From Lacrimispora saccharolytica (lineage in GTDB: Bacteria; Bacillota; Clostridia; Lachnospirales; Lachnospiraceae), in contig JADYUL010000003.1 in the NCBI GenBank assembly GCA_021531795.1, forward strand, positions 186,001 through 250,000: DNA of 64,000 nt, read 5' to 3'. The translations under genes and the position numbers were made by a program. The notes under the pieces are model-generated. The model was not told the origin of the DNA. It made no database searches and was given only the letters and a program-made list of their open reading frames with translations. Below are positions 847 to 41,457 of the stretch, piece after piece. Numbering within the stretch: position 1 is the stretch's first letter; each line of letters opens with the position of its first letter.

Positions 847-3099
847 ATGATGGGAACTAAGAAGGGCTCCGAGGGAGGAGCCCATCGTTTTGCCGTAAAA
901 AACGGCGGTTATTCATATATAAGGATAATCTTTGGCGTGATTGTGGCGATAATTACCGGTCTGCTCGTGTGGATGCTGAGTAAGCCCGCCTTGCAGAGCG
1001 TGAATACCGAAGCGTTGCTCCCGAAGATTGATCCAAGGCCGGTATATACTGAGATTCATGACGGGGATACCCTTGAGGTCAGCTTTTTGCCTGAAAAGGA
1101 TATGACAGTCAGAGGGCTTGAACTTCTAGTGGTCAACACTGAGGGCGATAATGACGCGGTGATGAAGGTATCTGTCAGGGACTCGGAAGGTGCGACTCTG
1201 CACTCAGGTGATGTTGCAGCCGGCGATCTAAGCGTCGGAGAGTGGACAAAGGTAGATGTCGACATGGTGTTTGCGGCAGGTGAGACGATCACGATTTCCT
1301 TTACCGCGCATGGTTTTGAGCCGTATTTCATGACTGTTCAGGGTTATACACCCGGAATCTCACTTGGCTTTGATGTGCTCAAGGCTGAGACCCTGAGATA
1401 TGGTGACATCTTCTATTACTCCACTGCGCTCGTGATCCTGTTTGGTTGTGCACTTGTATTTGTGATCCTGTTTGGGTTTAATCGTGTGGGAAGTGCGCTA
1501 TCAAAGCTTCGTATCACAGACAGGGAGCGCAAGATGGCGGGTGAACTCTTCCTTGTGCTGATATTTGCTACCATTTCACTTATGATAATCAGGGATGCTT
1601 ATATAGATGGAGTTTACATAACAGCGGATTCTGACGGCTATTTACGTGAAGCCGTGAATCTGGTTGCGGGTAACGGCTTTGCTTACGACGGCCTGGCGGG
1701 ATACAGAAGCTGGTTTGCCAACTGGCCAATAGTATACCCTGCGATGATAGCGGCGGTGATGGCCTGCACGGGCTTCAACGCCTATCTTGCAAGCAAGGTT
1801 GTGGCGATCATCATCCTGGCATTAATAATCCTTGTGCTCAGAGCCTTTTTTGGCAAAAGTGCGTGGATTTACTCTCTTGCCTTATTCAATACGGGCATCG
1901 TGATGATATTCTATCATACCTGGAGTGAGATACCGTTTATCCTGTTTATGCTGATCTTTGCTCTTTCTCTTGGCAGGGTCGTATCAGAAGAGGATCCGTC
2001 AGTATGCATGTATGTGGTGCTTGCAATCTCGGGAACGTTGTGCTTCCTCACCAGATATTTCGGAATCTTCCTATGGGTTGTTGCCGGAATCTACTGGCTA
2101 ATAATGTTGGTTAACGAAGTGAGTAAGTCAAAGGAAAATCACATTGTCGGAAGGATTATTGAGACACTTAAGAATAAATCGAAACTGACAAAGAAGCTGA
2201 TAGGACTTGCCCTGTCGGCTGTGATAAGCGTATCGGTGTACATCTTCTATCTTATCATGAATAAGATTAAGAACGGTGCACCCACGGGAGTAAGCCGAAG
2301 CGACTGGTGGGATGATTATCACACACTAACGGATGATCTTATTAATAGTATTATTACAGAGATATTCAATGCGCTGACCCTTGATGTTCCGGCAAACATT
2401 GCCGGTCTCGATGTCAATCTCAAGGTGTGGGTCATTATTGCGGTGGATATTCTGCTTGTTACAGTAATATTAAACGTGCTTAAGAAAAACAGGGCTGAGA
2501 ATAAAACAGAATGGCTCTTTCATCCGGGAATGGTACTGATTGTAACAGCTATTGTTTATTATGCGATGTTTATTGTGATCAGGTACCGATCAAGCATGGA
2601 TACATTCTATTTCAGATTCTTCGCACCGGCCACCCTGCTATTGGTGCTGGGATTGATCTGCATTATTTTGGAAGAACGCAGAGGGATCGGGACGGCAGCC
2701 TGCATCCTTGCGAGTGTTGCAGTGCTCGCTCTTTTTACGGATTGTATGGGCGATATAGAGACGTCGGGTGGCGATAGCATGTACGAGATATGCGCTGCTG
2801 AATGGGACGTGGCGTATCGTGATGTACCTGAACGCAGTGTGGTTATCTGGAGTGGGCTGGATTACAGGAGTACGTGGTATAGACCGGATGTAGTCGGTGG
2901 ACAGCTGTATGAGGATGATACCATGGAAACGCTTCGTGAGAGATATTATGGCTCCGAATATATGTGTATAAGTACGGAATATGTGGATGCGATTCTTACA
3001 GAGGGCAATTATGCTGAGGAAATAAAAGATAAGATACGTGAAGCGAGCGCGGAGAATATGAATACTTCGGGTGACTATATAGTAATTAAGTTGAGGTGA
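847..3099 (+). CDS. GT-C fold (GT39/ArnT-like) membrane glycosyltransferase
   Basis: 750 residues. Residues about 25-45 form a membrane anchor, followed by a roughly 130-residue soluble beta-rich domain (residues 55-180), then about ten hydrophobic segments, and a soluble C-terminal tail (residues 640-750). After the first membrane segment of the second block comes an acidic loop, TADSDGYLREAVNL, in the place of the D/E-rich catalytic motif of GT-C enzymes that use polyprenyl-phosphate sugars. The start is one of two adjacent ATGs (847 or 850) after an AGGTGA site. The inserted extracytoplasmic domain before the catalytic loop is unusual for ArnT/PMT proteins. The GT2 enzyme at 3829-4776 could make the lipid-linked donor and the paired small transporters at 20.7-21.4 kb could flip it; that link is inference. 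The acceptor is unknown. Confidence 0.7.
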   Translation: MMGTKKGSEGGAHRFAVKNGGYSYIRIIFGVIVAIITGLLVWMLSKPALQSVNTEALLPKIDPRPVYTEIHDGDTLEVSFLPEKDMTVRGLELLVVNTEGDNDAVMKVSVRDSEGATLHSGDVAAGDLSVGEWTKVDVDMVFAAGETITISFTAHGFEPYFMTVQGYTPGISLGFDVLKAETLRYGDIFYYSTALVILFGCALVFVILFGFNRVGSALSKLRITDRERKMAGELFLVLIFATISLMIIRDAYIDGVYITADSDGYLREAVNLVAGNGFAYDGLAGYRSWFANWPIVYPAMIAAVMACTGFNAYLASKVVAIIILALIILVLRAFFGKSAWIYSLALFNTGIVMIFYHTWSEIPFILFMLIFALSLGRVVSEEDPSVCMYVVLAISGTLCFLTRYFGIFLWVVAGIYWLIMLVNEVSKSKENHIVGRIIETLKNKSKLTKKLIGLALSAVISVSVYIFYLIMNKIKNGAPTGVSRSDWWDDYHTLTDDLINSIITEIFNALTLDVPANIAGLDVNLKVWVIIAVDILLVTVILNVLKKNRAENKTEWLFHPGMVLIVTAIVYYAMFIVIRYRSSMDTFYFRFFAPATLLLVLGLICIILEERRGIGTAACILASVAVLALFTDCMGDIETSGGDSMYEICAAEWDVAYRDVPERSVVIWSGLDYRSTWYRPDVVGGQLYEDDTMETLRERYYGSEYMCISTEYVDAILTEGNYAEEIKDKIREASAENMNTSGDYIVIKLR

Positions 3100-7615: not shown

Positions 7616-7982
7616 GGGAAAATTATATGTCCTTTACTATGATTTGCGCGGAGATCCGCTTGGAGTTTGAAGTGTGTGGCAACGCGGGTTGCTTAATTTG
7701 ATATGTTTGAAGGAGATGATACATCGGAATTGCCTATTTTTGTGGAGTTCCGATGTATTTCACTATGATTCGCGCGGCGATTCGCTTGGAGCTTGAAGTG
7801 TGTGGCAACGCGGGTTGCTTAAATTGATGGATTTTGGGTATTTTTGAGGGGTGGATACATCGGGATTGCTTGTTTTTGTGGACTTCCGATGTATTTCACT
7901 ATGATTCGCGCGGAGGCTCGCTTGGAGTTTGAGGTGTGTGGCAACGCGGGTTGCTTAATTTGATATATGTTTGAAGGAGATG

Positions 7983-8375
7983 ATACATCGGAATTGCCAT
8001 TAATTGCAGGGTTCCGATGTATTCTTTTTTTAGATACATCGGAATCTGATATTTTTGTTGAATCCCGATGTATCCGGAATATATAGTTTTGGAACATACA
8101 TCGGAAATGCCACCATTTAGGGCCTTTCCGATGTATTATTGCCCTGGTTTCAGTAGGCGATACATCGGGATTAAGATTTCAATGCCCATCCCGATGTACG
8201 GAGTCTCAAATCTATCTATAATATACATCGGGATGGGCTAATATAGTCTATTTCCGATGTATCGCCAAAAATTGCCAAAACAAAATACATCGGAATTCAT
8301 CAATTCATAGCTATCCCGATGTATCAAAATCCAGCATACATCGGAAACCCAAGTTTTCTTCCAATCCCGATGTAT
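7983..8375. repeat. Seven-unit palindrome array A
   Basis: Seven 40-41 bp units in a row. Gaps between them are 11, 22, 23, 23, 22 and 11 bp, so arms face each other at about one or two DNA helical turns. The arms are nearly constant while each interior has its own sequence. The unit at 8160 ends in GATGTAC, not GATGTAT, and this variant is kept in every copy of that unit in the window. Confidence 0.92.
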
Positions 8376-8440
8376 TCATATTAATTTTCCACGATTCTAC
8401 CTGCCATCTCTCGCAGTATACTCCCGCGCAAGTCAACCTC

Positions 8441-8498
8441 AATTAATTTCCCGCGATGCTACCTATACTCCCTCGCAGCCTATCCCCGCGCGAGCAGG
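8441..8498 (+). repeat. Repeat module R (best of three copies in locus 1)
   Basis: Copies at about 8380-8432, 8441-8498 and 8983-9039, and in reverse orientation at 39438-39494, 39504-39556, 39615-39671 and 40105-40160. It opens with AATTAATTTCCCGCGAT and ends in CTCCCGCGCAAG or a close variant. CCGCGCAA is the complement of TTGCGCGG in module L, so L and R give a cassette short inverted ends. Confidence 0.85.
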
Positions 8499-8501
8499 TC
8501 T

Positions 8502-8570
8502 CACTATGATTTGCGCGGAGATTCGCTTGGAGTTTGAGGTGTGTGGCAACGCGGGTTGCTTAATTTGATA
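8502..8570 (+). repeat. Repeat module L (best of four copies in locus 1)
   Basis: Copies at 7636-7702, 7762-7828, 7897-7965 and 8502-8570, and in reverse orientation at 40033-40100 and 40221-40288. Each starts near ACTATGATT, carries TGCGCGG, then GTGTGTGGCAACGCGGGTTG with a GCAAC/GTTGC stem, and ends in GCTTAATTTGAT. It always lies on the same side of the palindromic units. Confidence 0.85.
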
Positions 8571-8585
8571 TGTTTGAAGGAGATG

Positions 8586-8978
8586 ATACATCGGAATTGC
8601 CATTATTTGCAGGGTTCCGATGTATTCTTCTTTTTGATACATCGGAATCTGATATTCTTGTTGAATCCCGATGTATCTGGAATATATAGTTTTGGACCAT
8701 ACATCGGAAATGCCACCATTTAGGGCCTTTCCGATGTATTATTGCCCTAGTTTCAGTAGGCGATACATCGGGATTAAGATTTCAATGCCCATCCCGATGT
8801 ACGGAGTCTCAAATCTACATATAATATACATCGGGATGGGCTAATATAGTCTATTTCCGATGTATCGCCAAAAATTGCCAAAACAAAATACATCGGAAAT
8901 AATCAATTCATAGCTATCCCGATGTATCAAAAACCAGCATACATCGGAATTCCAGGTTTTCTTCCAATCCCGATGTAT
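8586..8978. repeat. Seven-unit palindrome array B, direct duplicate of array A
   Basis: Unit by unit, this repeats array A at a constant offset of 603 bp (8586-7983, 8637-8034, 8699-8096, through 8939-8336), with only a few substitutions. The duplicated segment includes the preceding L module (7897 and 8502; a 2-bp indel separates L from the array). It is a recent tandem duplication of a whole L-array-R cassette. Confidence 0.92.
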
Positions 8979-9301
8979 TCCATTTAATTTCCCGCGATTC
9001 TACTTCTATTCCCTCGCAGCCTACTCCCGCGCAAGCAGGCAAAAACAAACAAAATACATCGGAAATCATCAATTCATAGCCATCCCGATGTATCGCCCAA
9101 AATTGCCAAAACAAAATACATCGAACCCCATCAATTCATCGCCATCCCGATGTATCAAAACCCAGCATACATCGGAAACTCACAAAAGTACCTTCGCGCA
9201 TAAGAGTATAAGCATAAGAGTATATTCATCAAAATGTAGTAGTTTCTGTCAAGATGTGGTATGCTTAAGATAATTATGGGGTTATATACCCCAAATTGTA
9301 G

Positions 9302-34443: not shown

Positions 34444-34617
34444 CTCTTATTCAGAGTGGTGGAGGTACATAGGACCTGTGAAGCCACGGCAACCCCAGAC
34501 CGGTAGGTAGGAAGGTGCCAACCTGAGCAACATCTTATTCAAATCGAATAAGTACTATTGAACAATAAGAGGATTTGAGATATATGTCGAGTCCGCTTAT
34601 TCACAGCGGATTTTTTT
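34444..34617 (+). promoter_or_regulatory. SAM-I (S-box) riboswitch with terminator, controlling metK
   Basis: The P1 strands are CTCTTATT (34444-34451) and AATAAGAG (34564-34571). Between them lie AGAGTGGTGGAGG, CTGTGAAGCCACGGCAACC and AAGGTGCCAACCTGAGCAA, the core S-box sequences, and a hairpin CTTATTC/GAATAAG. The expression platform is the stem TCCGC (34592-34596) / GCGGA (34606-34610) followed by seven T residues. High S-adenosylmethionine should stabilise P1 and end transcription before metK. Confidence 0.95.
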
Positions 34618-35975: not shown

Positions 35976-38900
35976 ATGGCTTTTGTACACCTTCACACAC
36001 ATACCGAGTTCAGTCTGCTGGACGGCTCGAACAAGATAACCGAATATGTTAAGAGAGTAAAGGAACTGGGTATGAACAGTGCCGCAATTACCGACCACGG
36101 CGTTATGTACGGAGCCATCGACTTCTATAAGGCCTGTGTTAAGGAAGGCATCAAGCCTGTCATTGGCTGCGAGGTATATGTTGCTCCGGGTTCGAGATTT
36201 GACAAGGAATCCAATGCAAGCGAGGACAGGTATAACCACTTAGTCCTGCTTGCGGAGAATGACCTGGGCTACGCCAACTTATGCAAAATCGTGAGCCGCG
36301 GTTTTACGGAGGGTTTCTACTATAAACCAAGAATTGACAAAGAGGTATTAAGAGAGTTCCACGAGGGCATAATTGCACTCTCAGCCTGTCTTGCAGGCGA
36401 GATTCCCACTCTCATACTTAAAGGCCTCGATGCAGAGGCCAAGAAAGCGATTCTTGAATACGAAGAGATATTCGGCGAGGGCAATTTTTACCTGGAATTG
36501 CAGGACCACGGCTATAAGGAACAGCAGACCGTCAACGCCAAGCTCATTCACTTCGCGCAAGACTTAGGGATTGGGCTTGTGGCGACCAACGATGTTCACT
36601 ATACCTATGCGGAGGATGTGGAGAGTCACGATATTCTGCTGTGTATCCAGACCGGCAAAAAGGTGACGGATGAGAACAGGATGCGCTATGAGGGCGGTCA
36701 GTTCTACGTGAAGAGCGAAGAGGAGATGCGAAAAATCTTTAAGTTTGCTCCGGAGGCTCTGGACAACACCCAGGCTATTGCCGACAGGTGTAACGTGACG
36801 ATCGAGTTCGGCAATACGAAGCTGCCGCATTTTGACGTTCCGGAAGGTTATGATTCGTGGAGCTATCTTAATAAGTTGTGCGAGGACGGATTAAAGGAGA
36901 GGTATCCTGACTGCGATAAGACTATTAGTGAGAGGCTAAAGTATGAGCTTGACGTCATCAGACGAATGGGATATGTTGACTACTTCCTCATCGTGTGGGA
37001 TTTCATAAACTATGCGAGAAAGAAAGATATTCCGGTCGGTCCCGGCAGGGGCTCGGCTGCGGGAAGTCTGGTATCCTACTGCCTTCATATAACAAATATT
37101 GACCCGATTAAGTACGACCTGCTCTTTGAGAGATTCCTGAATCCGGAGCGAGTGTCGATGCCCGATATTGATATAGATTTCTGCGTTAAGAGGCGCCAGG
37201 AAGTAATAGATTATGTGTCGGAGAAATACGGCAGGGAGAAGGTGGTTCAGATCGTAACCTTCGGAACCATGGCTGCCAAGGGCGTGATCAAGGACGTTGG
37301 TCGTGCGCTTGACCTGCCCTATTCTTACACAGATGCCATCTCCAAGATGATTCCGTCTGAGCTTAATATTACGTTAGATCGCGCCATGGAGCTCAATGCG
37401 GAACTGAGGCTTAAGTATGAGCAGGATGATGAATTACACAATCTTATAGATATATGCAGGAAACTGGAGGGTCTGCCAAGGCATACCTCGATGCATGCTG
37501 CGGGAGTGGTCATCTGTCCCAAGGCTGCAGATGAATTCGTGCCTTTGTCGCGCGGCTCTGACGGCTCTATTACGACCCAGTATATCATGACGACCCTGGA
37601 GGAGCTGGGTCTGCTTAAGATGGACTTCCTTGGTCTTCGTAACCTGACTGTCATCAAGGATACCGTGGATTCGATATATAAGCGGACCGGCAAGAGGATA
37701 GATGTTGATAAGCTTGATTATGATGACAAGGCAGTGCTTGCATCACTTGGCACCGGCCACACTGAAGGTATATTCCAGCTTGAGAGTGCCGGCATGCGCT
37801 CCTTCATGAAGGAACTTAAGCCGCAGTCACTCGAGGATGTCATAGCAGGAATCTCACTCTTCAGACCGGGTCCTATGGAATTCATTCCCAAATACATAGC
37901 GGGCAAGAATACCGCCGACTCGGTAACCTATCCCACGAAGGAGCTTGAGCCCATACTGTCTCCTACCTACGGATGTATCGTCTACCAGGAACAGGTAATG
38001 CAGATAGTGCGCTCGCTTGCAGGCTATTCCATGGGTGAAGCCGATAATATCCGCCGTGCCATGAGCAAGAAGAAGCAGTATGTCATCGATGCCGGAAGGG
38101 AAGATTTCGTACACGGCAACAAGGAGAAGAATATCGACGGCTGTGTGAACAGACATATTGATGAGAAGGTGGCTAACGAAATCTATGATTCCATGACCGA
38201 TTTCGCGAAGTATGCCTTCAACAAGTCTCATGCGGCCTGCTATGCCGTAGTTGCATATCAGACAGCATGGCTTAAATATTACTATCCGCTGGAATTCATG
38301 GCAGCCCTCATGACCTCGGTTATTGACAATCCGGGCAAGACCTCGGAATATATCATGGCCTGTAAGTCAATGGGGATTAAGATTCTGCCGCCGGATGTTA
38401 ACTCCGGAGAGGCCGATTTTGCGGTAGCAGACAATGCCATAAGATACGCCCTGACAGCGATTAAGGGTGTGGGACGCAATGTCATCGACAATATCGCCAA
38501 GGAGAGGGAGTTGTACGGTCCCTACAGGAATCTGGAGGACTTCATTACCCGAAACATGAGCAAGGAGCTAAATAAGAGGGTGGTGGAGAGCCTGATCAAG
38601 GCGGGTGCGCTCGATGGCTTCGGTGCGACCAGGAAGCAGTGTATCAGTGTCTATGCGGATATCATGGACAAGATTCAGGGAGATCTTAAGAACAACATGC
38701 CGGGGCAGATGACGCTCTTTGACATTGTGGATGAGAGCGAGAAGGCGCAGTTTGAGATCAAGATGCCGAATGTGGGTGAGTATCCCAAGGAGCTGAAGCT
38801 GTCTTTCGAGAAGAGTGTACTCGGAATCTATGTAAGCGGTCATCCTCTGGAGGAGTACGAGGAACTGTGGCGCAAGAATATTACCAATGTGACCTCGGAC

Positions 38901-39422
38901 CTCTACTATGATGAAGAGACCGGCTCCATGCGTGTAAAAGACGGCAGCAGTGTCACTCTGGGTGGTATCATAACCGACAGAACCATAAAGTATACGAATA
39001 ATGCCAAGACCATGGCCTTCATGACCATCGAGGACCTGGCAGGAAGTATAGAATGTATTGTATTCCCCAAGGTGTACGAAAGATGTGCGAATGTGATAAA
39101 TCCGGACAGCAAGGTGTTCGTGAGAGGCAGGGTCTCTGCGGAGGATGAAGCCAACGGCAAACTCATCATCGATACGATCACACCTTTCGAGGAAATCAGT
39201 CGCAGACTCTGGCTTCGATTCGACACCAAGGAGGCTTACGACCTGGTAAGCGACGAGCTAAATGATATTATTCGTGAATCTGACGGCCGCGACATCGTGG
39301 TAATCTACATCGTGGAGGGCAAGCTCAAGAAGGAGCTTCCACGCAGTATGACAGTTAACGGCAGCGCACTCGCAGACGCCCTGAGCGCCCGCTTCGGCGC
39401 CGACAACGTGAAGTTGGTGTAG
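35976..39422 (+). CDS. dnaE: DNA polymerase III subunit alpha
   Basis: 1,148 residues, normal for a DnaE1-type replicase subunit. N-terminal PHP domain ([30 protein letters not shown]), polymerase core with [15 protein letters not shown] and the catalytic [13 protein letters not shown] at about residue 391-403, [29 protein letters not shown]-like text, a helix-hairpin-helix region ([14 protein letters not shown]) and an OB-fold (about 1000-1080). It copies chromosomal DNA with the beta clamp. AAGGAGAG precedes the ATG. It ends at the start of repeat locus 2. Confidence 0.97.
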   Translation: [1148 protein letters not shown]

Positions 39423-39437
39423 GAATTATTCTTTTGT

Positions 39438-40288
39438 CTGCTCGCGCGGGAGTATACTACGAGGGGATGTAGGTATATTCGCGGGAAATTAAATTGAGGT
39501 TGACTTGCGCGGGAGTATACTACGAGTGAGTATAGGTAACATCGCGGGAAATTAATTGGAATACATCGGGATTGCTATAAATTGTCGGATTCCGATGTAT
39601 TTTGTTTGTTTTGTCTGCTTGCGCGGGGATAGACTGCGAGGGAGTATAGGTAGCATCGCGGGAAATTAATTGAAATACATCGGGATTGGAAGAAATTGTT
39701 GGATTCCGATGTATTATGTTTTGGCAATTTTTGGCGATACATCGGAACTGGTCTATATTGGCCCATCCCGATGTATATTGTAGATAGATTTGAGCCTCCG
39801 TACATCGGGATGGGAATTGAAATCTCAATCCCGATGTATCGCCTACTGAAACCAGAGTAACAATACATCGGAAAGGCCCTAGATCGGGAATTTCCGATGT
39901 ATGTTACAAAAACAATACATTCCAGATACATCGGGATTCAACAAAGATACCAGATTCCGATGTATCCAAAAAAAGAATACATCGGAACTCCACAAAAGCA
40001 GGTAATCCCGATGTATCTCCCCCTCCAAATCTATCAGATTAAGCAACCCGCGTTGCCACATACATCAAACTCCAAGCAAATCTCCGCGCAAATCATAGTG
40101 AGGCCTGCTTGCGCGGGAGTATACTACGAGCGAGTATAGGTAGCATCGTGGGAAATTAAATATAATACATCAAGAGCCGGGATGAACTTGAATTCCCAAT
40201 GTATCCATCCCTCGAAATTTATCAAATTAAGCAACCCGCGTTGCCACACACTTCAAACTCAAAGCGAATCTCCGCGCAAATCATAGTG
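39438..40288. repeat. Palindromic-unit repeat locus 2, inverted relative to locus 1
   Basis: The same three parts as locus 1, read on the other strand. Order on the + strand: R, R, unit 39561-39600, R, six units (39675-39714, 39737-39776, 39800-39839, 39863-39902, 39926-39965, 39977-40016), L, R, one degenerate unit 40165-40204, L. Reverse-complemented, these units match, in order, the units at 7719, 8034, 8096, 8160, 8223, then 8336 and 8285. It fills the whole dnaE-pfkA gap up to 40288. No gene is seen in it. Confidence 0.92.
39675..40016. repeat. Six-unit palindrome array in locus 2
   Basis: Gaps between the 40-bp units are 22, 23, 23, 23 and 11 bp, the same spacing series as in locus 1 read backwards. 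Comparing each unit with its locus 1 counterpart by hand, arms are almost identical while interiors carry most differences. Confidence 0.9.
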
Positions 40289-40352: not shown

Positions 40353-40451
40353 CGACCGAGATTGTGCGTATCATGCCGGCCGGGGCGACCGAGATTGTGC
40401 GTATCATATCGGCCAAGGTGACCGAGATTATAGATATCAGGACGGTTAGAT
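40353..40451 (+). repeat. Three tandem 33-bp repeats in the pfkA leader
   Basis: CGACCGAGATTGTGCGTATC starts at 40353 and 40386, and a diverged copy (TGACCGAGATTATAGATATC) at 40419; the spacing is exactly 33 bp. They lie between the promoter and the ribosome site. A 33-bp period is a multiple of three, but the only frame through them runs into pfkA out of phase and looks non-coding. Confidence 0.85.
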
Positions 40452-40461
40452 GGAGAATATT

Positions 40462-41457
40462 ATGGGAAAAGAGATTAAGAAGATTGGTGTGCTTACAAGC
40501 GGTGGTGATGCACCGGGAATGAATGCTGCTATAAGAGCTGTTGTTCGTAAGGCTATATCTAATGGCGTCGAGGTTGTCGGCGTTAAGAAGGGATACATGG
40601 GACTGCTTAATAATGAAATAGTTCCGATGGATGCCCACAGTGTTTCGGATATAATTCAGAGAGGCGGTACAATCCTTGGTACAGCCAGATGTAAAGAATT
40701 CACTACAGAGGAAGGTCAGGCTCAGGGAGCGGAGATCTGCAGACAGAATGGAATTGATGGTATGGTTGTCATCGGTGGAGACGGATCATACAGAGGAGCA
40801 CAGGCTTTGAGCAAGCATGGAATCAATACAATCGGTCTGCCCGGAACAATAGACCTTGATATTTCATGTACCGATTATACGATCGGCTTCGATACTGCGA
40901 TTAATACTGCAATGGAAGCTATTGATAAGGTTAGAGATACATCTTCTTCTCATGAGAGATGCAGTATCATAGAGGTTATGGGAAGAAATGCCGGATATAT
41001 TGCGCTTTGGTGTGGTGTTGCCAACGGTGCTGAGGACATTCTGCTTCCGGAAAAATATGACTTCAATGAGCAGAAGATAATCAACAATATTATTGCTAAC
41101 CGTAAGAGGGGCAAGACTCATCACCTTATTGTTAATGCTGAGGGCATTGGTCATTCGACATCAATGGCAAGAAGAATTGAGGCTGCTACAGGCATAGAGA
41201 CCAGAGCTACTATCTTAGGTTACATGCAACGTGGTGGTAATCCAACCTGCCGCGACAGATATTTTGCTTCGATCATGGGAGCTCTTGCAGCAGACATTCT
41301 CTGTGAAGGCAAGACCAACAGGGTAATTGCGTACAAGAATGGAGAGTTTGTGGACTATGATATTGATGAGGCACTTGCTATGCAGAAGTCCATTTCCGAT
41401 TATGAGTATGATGTAAGCCTTGCGCTTTCCAGATCAAGAATGGAAATCGGCAAATAA
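40462..41457 (+). CDS. pfkA: ATP-dependent 6-phosphofructokinase
   Basis: 331 residues from the ATG at 40462, which has GGAG ten bases upstream; 40450 is an alternative. KKIGVLTSGGDAPGMNAAIRAVVRK, IGGDGSYRGAQALS (the G-D-G-S form of ATP-using enzymes) and GTIDLDISCTDYTIGFDTA with the catalytic aspartate. In E. coli the matching triplet is D-N-D; here it is D-L-D. It phosphorylates fructose 6-phosphate, the main control step of glycolysis. It stands alone behind repeat locus 2. Confidence 0.95.
   Translation: MGKEIKKIGVLTSGGDAPGMNAAIRAVVRKAISNGVEVVGVKKGYMGLLNNEIVPMDAHSVSDIIQRGGTILGTARCKEFTTEEGQAQGAEICRQNGIDGMVVIGGDGSYRGAQALSKHGINTIGLPGTIDLDISCTDYTIGFDTAINTAMEAIDKVRDTSSSHERCSIIEVMGRNAGYIALWCGVANGAEDILLPEKYDFNEQKIINNIIANRKRGKTHHLIVNAEGIGHSTSMARRIEAATGIETRATILGYMQRGGNPTCRDRYFASIMGALAADILCEGKTNRVIAYKNGEFVDYDIDEALAMQKSISDYEYDVSLALSRSRMEIGK

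Follow-up and report, generated by a model that had tools for sequence, protein, structure and literature searches.

The window, by which we mean the whole 64,000-nt stretch of DNA that was analysed, contains an array of palindromic units between positions 7719 and 9155. Eighteen units were counted there (16 of 40 bp and two of 41 bp), in agreement with the figure of about 18 given in a preliminary description of the locus. The arms had been taken to be 12 bp long; ATACATCGGRAT and ATYCCGATGTAT are near-perfect at positions 1–9 but looser at positions 10–12. Over the nine plus nine arm bases, 15 units have no mismatch and three have one (those starting at 8160, 8763 and 9116). Gaps within runs measure 11, 22 or 23 bp, as had been claimed, and those between runs 75, 88, 96 and 210 bp. 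The window has 49 copies of the sequence ATACATCGG, where 100 shuffles averaged 0.51. The features are as follows.

7636..7718, plus strand: left flanking module (L) preceding a unit
7719..7758, no strand: unit A, 40 bp
7855..7894, no strand: unit A, 40 bp
7983..8375, no strand: first seven-unit run, with units at 7983–8022, 8034–8073, 8096–8136, 8160–8199, 8223–8262, 8285–8324 and 8336–8375, and gaps, in order, of 11, 22, 23, 23, 22 and 11 bp
8378..8498, plus strand: pair of right flanking modules (R), homologous to L in inverted orientation
8586..8978, no strand: second seven-unit run, 603 bp downstream of the first, with units at 8586–8625, 8637–8676, 8699–8739, 8763–8802, 8826–8865, 8888–8927 and 8939–8978
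9054..9155, no strand: two F-type units, 9054–9093 and 9116–9155
9167..9175, no strand: lone half-site ATACATCGG at the array end
39561..40016, no strand: second array of the window, seven units, element reversed
40165..40204, no strand: degenerate unit with three arm mismatches

Other copies of L precede the units at 7855 and 7983 and lie at about 8503–8585, and a third R module is found at 8981–9039. The range first assigned to the repeats, 7719–9175, does hold an array but misses the one at 39561–40016, which sits between a dnaE-like gene (35976–39422) and a pfkA-like gene (40450–41457); gene names are readings of translations unless a family search is stated. Treating the 18 units as independent repeats also needs correction. 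The series A-11-B-22/23-C-23-D-23-E-22-F-11-G is a single element that recurs in the genome, mostly with the same unit order, and the two A-to-G copies at this locus, 603 bp apart, represent a tandem duplication. Directly upstream of the pfkA-like gene, at about 40353–40445, there is in addition a short tandem repeat with a unit of roughly 33 bp (GACCGAGATTGTGCGTATCAT...). No Rfam family covers the units at the gathering score, so one finding that would have refuted the preliminary description, a named non-coding RNA family, did not materialize. The Rfam search returned only a SAM riboswitch for the window (34444–34571), and only 6S RNA for seven related loci. The riboswitch is directly 5' of an ORF at 34575 that resembles S-adenosylmethionine synthetase.

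Across the 2.15 Mb genome there are 133 exact units (perfect 9-bp arms), and a 416-base query located arrays only on contigs C4, C11, C22, C23, C25, C27 and C28. When up to three mismatches were allowed over the 18 arm bases, the stretches around these arrays together with the window gave 177 candidates, 167 of them exactly 40 bp long and 130 with perfect arms; a small number of the weakest stand alone and could be chance matches. At most three of the 133 exact units lie elsewhere, the other 130 being within the examined stretches or the window. Once candidates with three mismatches were dropped and a run was defined as two or more units, 23 intergenic runs remained. Seven types of unit interior can be distinguished, and most runs read A-11-B-23-C-23-D-23-E-22-F-11-G or part of it; a left module of 85 bp is repeated ahead of A, and a right module of 75 bp lies behind F or G. 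The runs at C11:351407, C11:364310, C25:129569 and C28:34170 depart from the standard order, and some of the unit-type labels assigned to the runs are uncertain. At four contig breaks (C4:1, C11:1, C25:129877 and C28:83618) arrays stop beside a common sequence around GGTGTAAATT, possibly an insertion sequence that entered array spacers.

The consensus L and R modules align as inverted homologues with a score of 39, reached by none of 2000 shuffles (maximum 35), and for this reason the element looks like a MITE. As to the terminal inverted repeats expected of a MITE, the inverted homology is that of the consensus modules, and several arrays lack one or both of these. A palindrome spanning the whole element is supported for the L and R modules and not for most unit interiors, those of units C and E showing inner complementarity. 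It is likely, although no parent transposase was identified, that in this genome the arrays spread in a MITE-like manner with inverted end modules; such spread is compatible with the main reading given below. PMC4596501 describes BrickBuilt, a MITE of Porphyromonas gingivalis, as an intergenic element of 19 copies in which leader and tail modules with inverted ends surround a repeat array. An intergenic array between inverted end modules is what is seen here too; the BrickBuilt repeats, however, are 23-nt tandem repeats without spacers, whereas ours are palindromes set apart by spacers, conserved in the arms and drifting in the interiors.

A rival explanation is that these are selfish repeats, of the REP/BIME or MITE type, that lie between genes and have no host function; a transposase or recombinase would need the arms, and the spacing would be inherited from a few parents. 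The copies with the same unit order, the inverted end modules L and R, the intergenic placement and the tandem duplication in the window are all in keeping with such repeats. On the whole evidence, including that given below, we regard this explanation as unlikely though still a serious possibility.

Constraint on the arms was measured in an alignment of 17 array cores (units A–F), picked by BLAST similarity over the whole array and not over the arms. For the six units, 102 of the 108 arm columns are invariant, with a mean pi of 0.008; the corresponding values are 0.24 for the interiors (97 columns), 0.21 for the spacers (106 columns) and 0.09 for positions 10–12. The Mann-Whitney p is 1e-26, which is only nominal because columns are not independent. 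The arms are thus the most conserved part of these cores, and a lack of arm conservation, the other finding that would have refuted the preliminary description, is not observed. Arms are retained even where interiors are poorly recognisable, with no mismatch in the four units at C25:129569 and one in the six units at C28:34170; this retention after interior drift is not what selfish repeats would lead one to expect. Within this genome the arms are about 25-fold less variable than the spacers, which also disfavours neutral tandem arrays, considered further below.

The spacers drift in sequence while their lengths are nearly fixed. Between confidently labelled neighbours, the AB spacer is 11 bp in 15 of 15 cases, CD is 23 bp in 17 of 17 and DE is 23 bp in 20 of 20; BC is 23 bp in 16 of 18 and 22 bp in the other two; and EF is 22 bp in 12 of 13, the remaining one being 32 bp. 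This increase of 10 bp is the sole large length change in the aligned cores. Uncertain neighbours, including one with a gap of 19 bp, were omitted from the counts, and one 24-bp gap was seen under another label pair.

The arms of this genome are largely confined to it. The pattern TACATCGG...CCGATGTA was found in one of 20 genomes of the genus, namely this one. In 397 genomes of the family, ACATCGGR...YCCGATGT had 162 occurrences here; 16 other genomes had one or two each, and the reversed control was matched in two genomes. A pattern of three half-sites, which allowed spacings of 43–68 bp, matched 12 other genomes (control, two). Three of these, from three other genera, hold small arrays with ACATCG arms: G208 has five units (spacings 62, 62, 62 and 62 bp), G148 four (61, 62 and 61 bp) and G060 two arrays (62, 83, 63 and 63 bp; 61, 62, 84, 63 and 64 bp). 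Several units of these arrays have diverged arms. The other nine genomes were taken as chance, each having a single match of length 56–66 and not 67–69. A 22-letter form of the unit, searched in one genome per named species (84,980 species, our own genome possibly excluded), gave three records, from Lachnospiraceae bacterium RUI286, Lachnospiraceae bacterium NK4A179 and a Holophagae MAG; the matches in the last two are single or paired hairpins, without arrays. Lone ACATCGG palindromes elsewhere were rejected as members, since nine of the 14 loci inspected overlap an ORF predicted by a simple caller (one of only 72 codons) and several of the others resemble terminators.

Other species of the genus carry arrays with other arms. 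An array finder blind to arm sequence, applied to 200 kb of the sister species G014, identified 37-bp units with TACGGAA...TTCCGTA arms (class 2). In the 20 genomes these number 22 in G014, 21 in G019, 17 in G015, seven in G008 and one each in G011 and G013; none was found in the other 14, this genome included, and the reversed control matched twice in G009 and once in G011. Class 3 units, of 32 bp with AGTCCTA...TAGGACT arms, number 11 in G018, seven in G005 and one in G006, with none in the other 17 genomes; the control matched once each in G004, G008 and G018 and twice in G009. G002 has an array of 31–32-bp units with AGCCTAC...GTAGGCT arms at 52–53 bp spacing. Seven of the 20 species thus contain at least seven units of exactly one of the three arm classes. 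The finder returned no arrays from 636 kb of shuffled sequence, nor from partial samples of G001, G003, G004, G006, G009, G011, G012 and G013 (36–100 kb each) and G005 (103 kb); as G005 has arrays elsewhere, a blank sample cannot be read as a lack of arrays.

Two arrays are orthologous, each occupying the same place in a pair of species, as under vertical inheritance. The first, upstream of a gyrB-like gene, is common to G008 and G019, where 56 of 56 arm positions and 194 of 203 others are identical (p 0.21, not significant alone). In the second, common to G018 and G005, the values are 48 of 48 and 165 of 195 (p 0.001). Pooling of both pairs gives 104 of 104 arm positions against 359 of 398 for the rest (Fisher p 0.0001). 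This count omits one 33-bp unit of G018, in which, by eye, one of 12 arm bases differs and there is a 1-bp gap; with that unit, the G018/G005 arms are identical at 59 of 60 positions (p 0.0025). Sharing in place runs against selfish repeats; the species restriction of the arms of the present genome is in their favour.

Centre-to-centre spacings in this genome fall at 51, 62–64, 113–116 and 125–126 bp, with single values of 59, 72, 128 and 136 bp; a further seven spacings reach at least 140 bp (166, 176, 182, 187, 250, 250 and 251 bp; six distinct values). Class 2 spacings are 64, 73–75, 83–86 and 137–138 bp (42 spacings), class 3 spacings are 53 bp in 28 of 30 cases and 54 bp in two, and those of the other genera are 61–64 and 83–84 bp. 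The class 2 and class 3 search patterns left the spacing free. For 11 pooled short classes the phasing statistic R at a period of 10.5 bp is 0.890, a value attained by none of 50,000 uniform random sets; with G148 omitted (10 classes) it is 0.899, reached by two of 50,000. Adding the long and odd values (26 classes) lowers R to 0.787, and including all spacings above 140 bp (32 classes) to 0.690, again with no random set in 50,000 reaching either value; the best period for the largest set is 10.45 bp. At a period of 11 bp the values are 0.90, 0.68 and 0.55 for the pooled short, 26 and 32 classes, respectively. The short spacings alone therefore do not fix the period; it takes the larger sets to tell 10.5 from 11. 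The 59-bp spacing, which corresponds to a 19-bp gap, is out of phase by −0.41 turn. For the six distinct values above 140 bp the deviation from a whole number of turns is 0.21–0.32 turn, so that phasing, good for spacings of up to about 140 bp, is weak for longer ones.

The pooling of spacing classes was our choice, and the classes are not independent, as arrays grow by tandem duplication and some spacings are sums of others (137 = 74 + 63). Taken alone, the window locus is weak evidence for phasing, because its gap series is mostly inherited from one parent element. The near-whole-turn spacing claimed for it is nevertheless seen in ten further genomes (G002, G005, G008, G014, G015, G018, G019, G060, G148 and G208). 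Steps of about one turn within a single arm class (64, 74 and 84 bp) are not explained by the spread of selfish repeats alone. Neutral tandem arrays, in which slippage duplicates a monomer of fixed length and regular spacing arises without function, find some support in the class 3 and G015 arrays, which resemble tandem repeats with constant monomers. That the monomer lengths of arrays with different arms cluster near whole turns speaks, however, against them, and together with the low arm variability here it makes this explanation very improbable.

The same data bear on whether the units act as RNA, that is, as transcribed terminators, mRNA stabilisers or protein-binding RNA arrays. Each unit could form a stem of 9–12 bp; symmetric arm changes occur in G060 (ACAGCGG/CCGCTGT) and G208 (GCATCGG/CCGATGC), and other family members have single ACATCGG hairpins beside T runs. 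Whole-turn spacing is, however, not expected from RNA linkers, nor are near-fixed spacer lengths where the spacer sequence drifts. As the preliminary description had pointed out, A-C and G-T arm mismatches both occur: at position 10 of class 1 units, types B, F and G have A.C as consensus and types A and E have G.T, so that both pairs are consensus in different unit types, which also tells against hairpins. In 59 class 2 units, positions 1–7 are nearly invariant and uninformative for a pairing test, while pairing exceeds shuffling at position 8 (46 of 59, z 4.2) and position 9 (45 of 59, z 3.4). This excess, like the inner complementarity of units C and E, would suit hairpins; at position 8 the units of G015, all of them C...G, contribute to it, and 13 of the 59 units have G-G or C-C at that position. 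Positions 10–16 show no consistent pairing excess (z −2.3 to 2.1). The test does not discriminate between a dimer site and a short hairpin, and it lends no support to a longer hairpin, except in units C and E. A terminator scan found one against 1.5 expected, but it admitted loops of 3–8 bases only and cannot judge these units. With no Rfam match over the units, and with arrays in all gene orientations, a role as RNA hairpins appears improbable.

Placement of the 23 runs was assessed by eye from a simple ORF caller. In 19 cases there is a called gene on both sides, in tandem (11), convergent (five) or divergent (three) orientation. The neighbours are unrelated genes, and operators for one gene family were rejected on the ground that the adjoining genes differ (by eye, without a family search). 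Coding repeats were rejected as well: short ORFs cross the arrays, yet spacings of 51, 62, 63, 74, 85 and 53 bp break any single frame. The pfkA-like gene is present in 19 relatives, at one of whose loci no upstream sequence was available, and in 18 of 18 others no array was found upstream of it (1.3–1.4 kb each; class 2 and class 3 both zero); one isolated class 1-like match (up to two mismatches) was seen, in L122. The distance from the last long open frame to this gene is 47–118 bp in 17 relatives and 270 bp in one, compared with about 1 kb of intergenic DNA here. This absence upstream of pfkA is again as selfish repeats would have it. Phage, plasmid and viral collections gave no match to the arrays.

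A chromosome-domain reading was not retained, as the 23 runs lie on seven contigs that comprise 1,204,110 of 2,148,134 bases and cannot be ordered. The gene rpmH is 412 bp from the start of contig C27, which has one array, and a search for dif-like sites gave one match with two mismatches against three control matches; the arrays are therefore not placed with respect to origin or terminus. A full dnaA was not found by the PF00308 profile (only a 41.6-bit match on C22) despite 99.8% completeness, and given the proximity of rpmH to a contig end it may fall in an assembly gap.

The closest known kinds of element are REP/BIME clusters and MITEs with internal repeats. According to PMC2817692 and PMC3733652, REP/BIME are extragenic palindromic units of 20–40 bp, present in more than 100 copies and forming regularly spaced, protein-binding clusters; the word Firmicutes does not occur in the main text of either paper. 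With 133 exact intergenic units in partly regular clusters, the element resembles them and meets the criterion of more than 100 palindromes, but it differs in its symmetric arms and in near-whole-turn spacing across several arm classes. The REP end tags GTAG and CGTC are absent from 330 class 1 ends (up to one arm mismatch) and 118 class 2 ends, class 3 ends not having been counted. Nor is a RAYT flanked by units: the 3.3 kb examined at the RAYT-like gene holds no unit, only one lone half-site inside a neighbouring ORF. This gene (255 aa) is flanked by its own inverted repeats GGGGACGTTTCTTC, unrelated to the units. Membership of REP/BIME therefore fails on the end tag and on the RAYT association, and both failures weigh against selfish repeats of that type. 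As mobilisers, the longer of the two Y1 transposase genes was rejected for its unrelated terminal repeats and the lack of any unit beside it, and the second (part of an IS200/IS605-like pair), about 3.7 kb from the C23 array, for the absence of units in the locus read. The RAYT-like tyrosine transposase itself (L137, G000:C24:71771 region; ORF 1099–1866, minus strand), whose inverted repeat begins GGGGACGTTTCTTCTGCCACGG, resembles the TIR-flanked transposases (TIRYT) described in PMC3733652.

A literature search gave nothing recognised as this layout, in line with the preliminary description, which knew of no named element of the kind; most subscription papers were outside its reach. The CRISPR criterion of unique spacers is not met, as interiors and spacers are homologous between arrays and in conserved order. 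Sites such as parS, matS and centromere-like arrays are palindromic or repeated, several per chromosome, and bound cooperatively; the present clusters differ in having many closely phased units each. No match to a parS consensus, with up to three mismatches allowed, was found in the window.

Conserved arms, free interiors, near-fixed spacer lengths and near-whole-turn spacing together fit a double-stranded DNA platform, and the spacing data favour such a platform, serving a cooperative protein, over RNA hairpins. The preliminary view that DNA binding is at least as likely as RNA hairpins gains support from the near-whole-turn spacing beyond the locus, in the absence of binding data. We consider it slightly more probable than its negation that the arrays are paired half-sites on double-stranded DNA for a cooperative, sequence-specific protein, forming a protein–DNA complex between genes. 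The arms would be read by this protein, none having been identified and none being known to us, and neighbouring units would be bound cooperatively on one helix face to give an extended complex. Between species, arms and protein are inferred to change together. As to use, local organisation of the chromosome, in which DNA between genes would be condensed, bridged or insulated, is the likeliest, without direct evidence for it. A wider form is put forward only tentatively, as it may well not hold: a class of nucleoprotein platforms on the chromosomes of this genus, built of helix-locked palindromic double half-sites. Each species would use a single arm sequence and the genus as a whole three or more, and the DNA-binding protein that recognises them would bind cooperatively, change fast and serve to organise the DNA between genes. 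The poor fit of the long spacings slightly lowers both of these readings and slightly raises that of selfish repeats.

If the platform reading is correct, close relatives have at least twice replaced the sequence by which a genome-wide DNA platform is recognised, without altering its geometry. The arrays would then be a natural system for the co-change of a DNA-binding protein and its many sites, and would represent a chromosome-organising repeat of a new kind, from a bacterial family that is common in the gut and the rumen. It follows as a prediction from the spacing rule that changes of 10 bp are tolerated and changes of 5 bp are not.

As for the surroundings of class 2 arrays, one is located downstream of an EF-Tu-like gene in each of G014 (L218) and G015 (L225), with different unit numbers and spacings, and the 6S RNA match (L226, 3799–3983) is about 1.3 kb from a G015 array.
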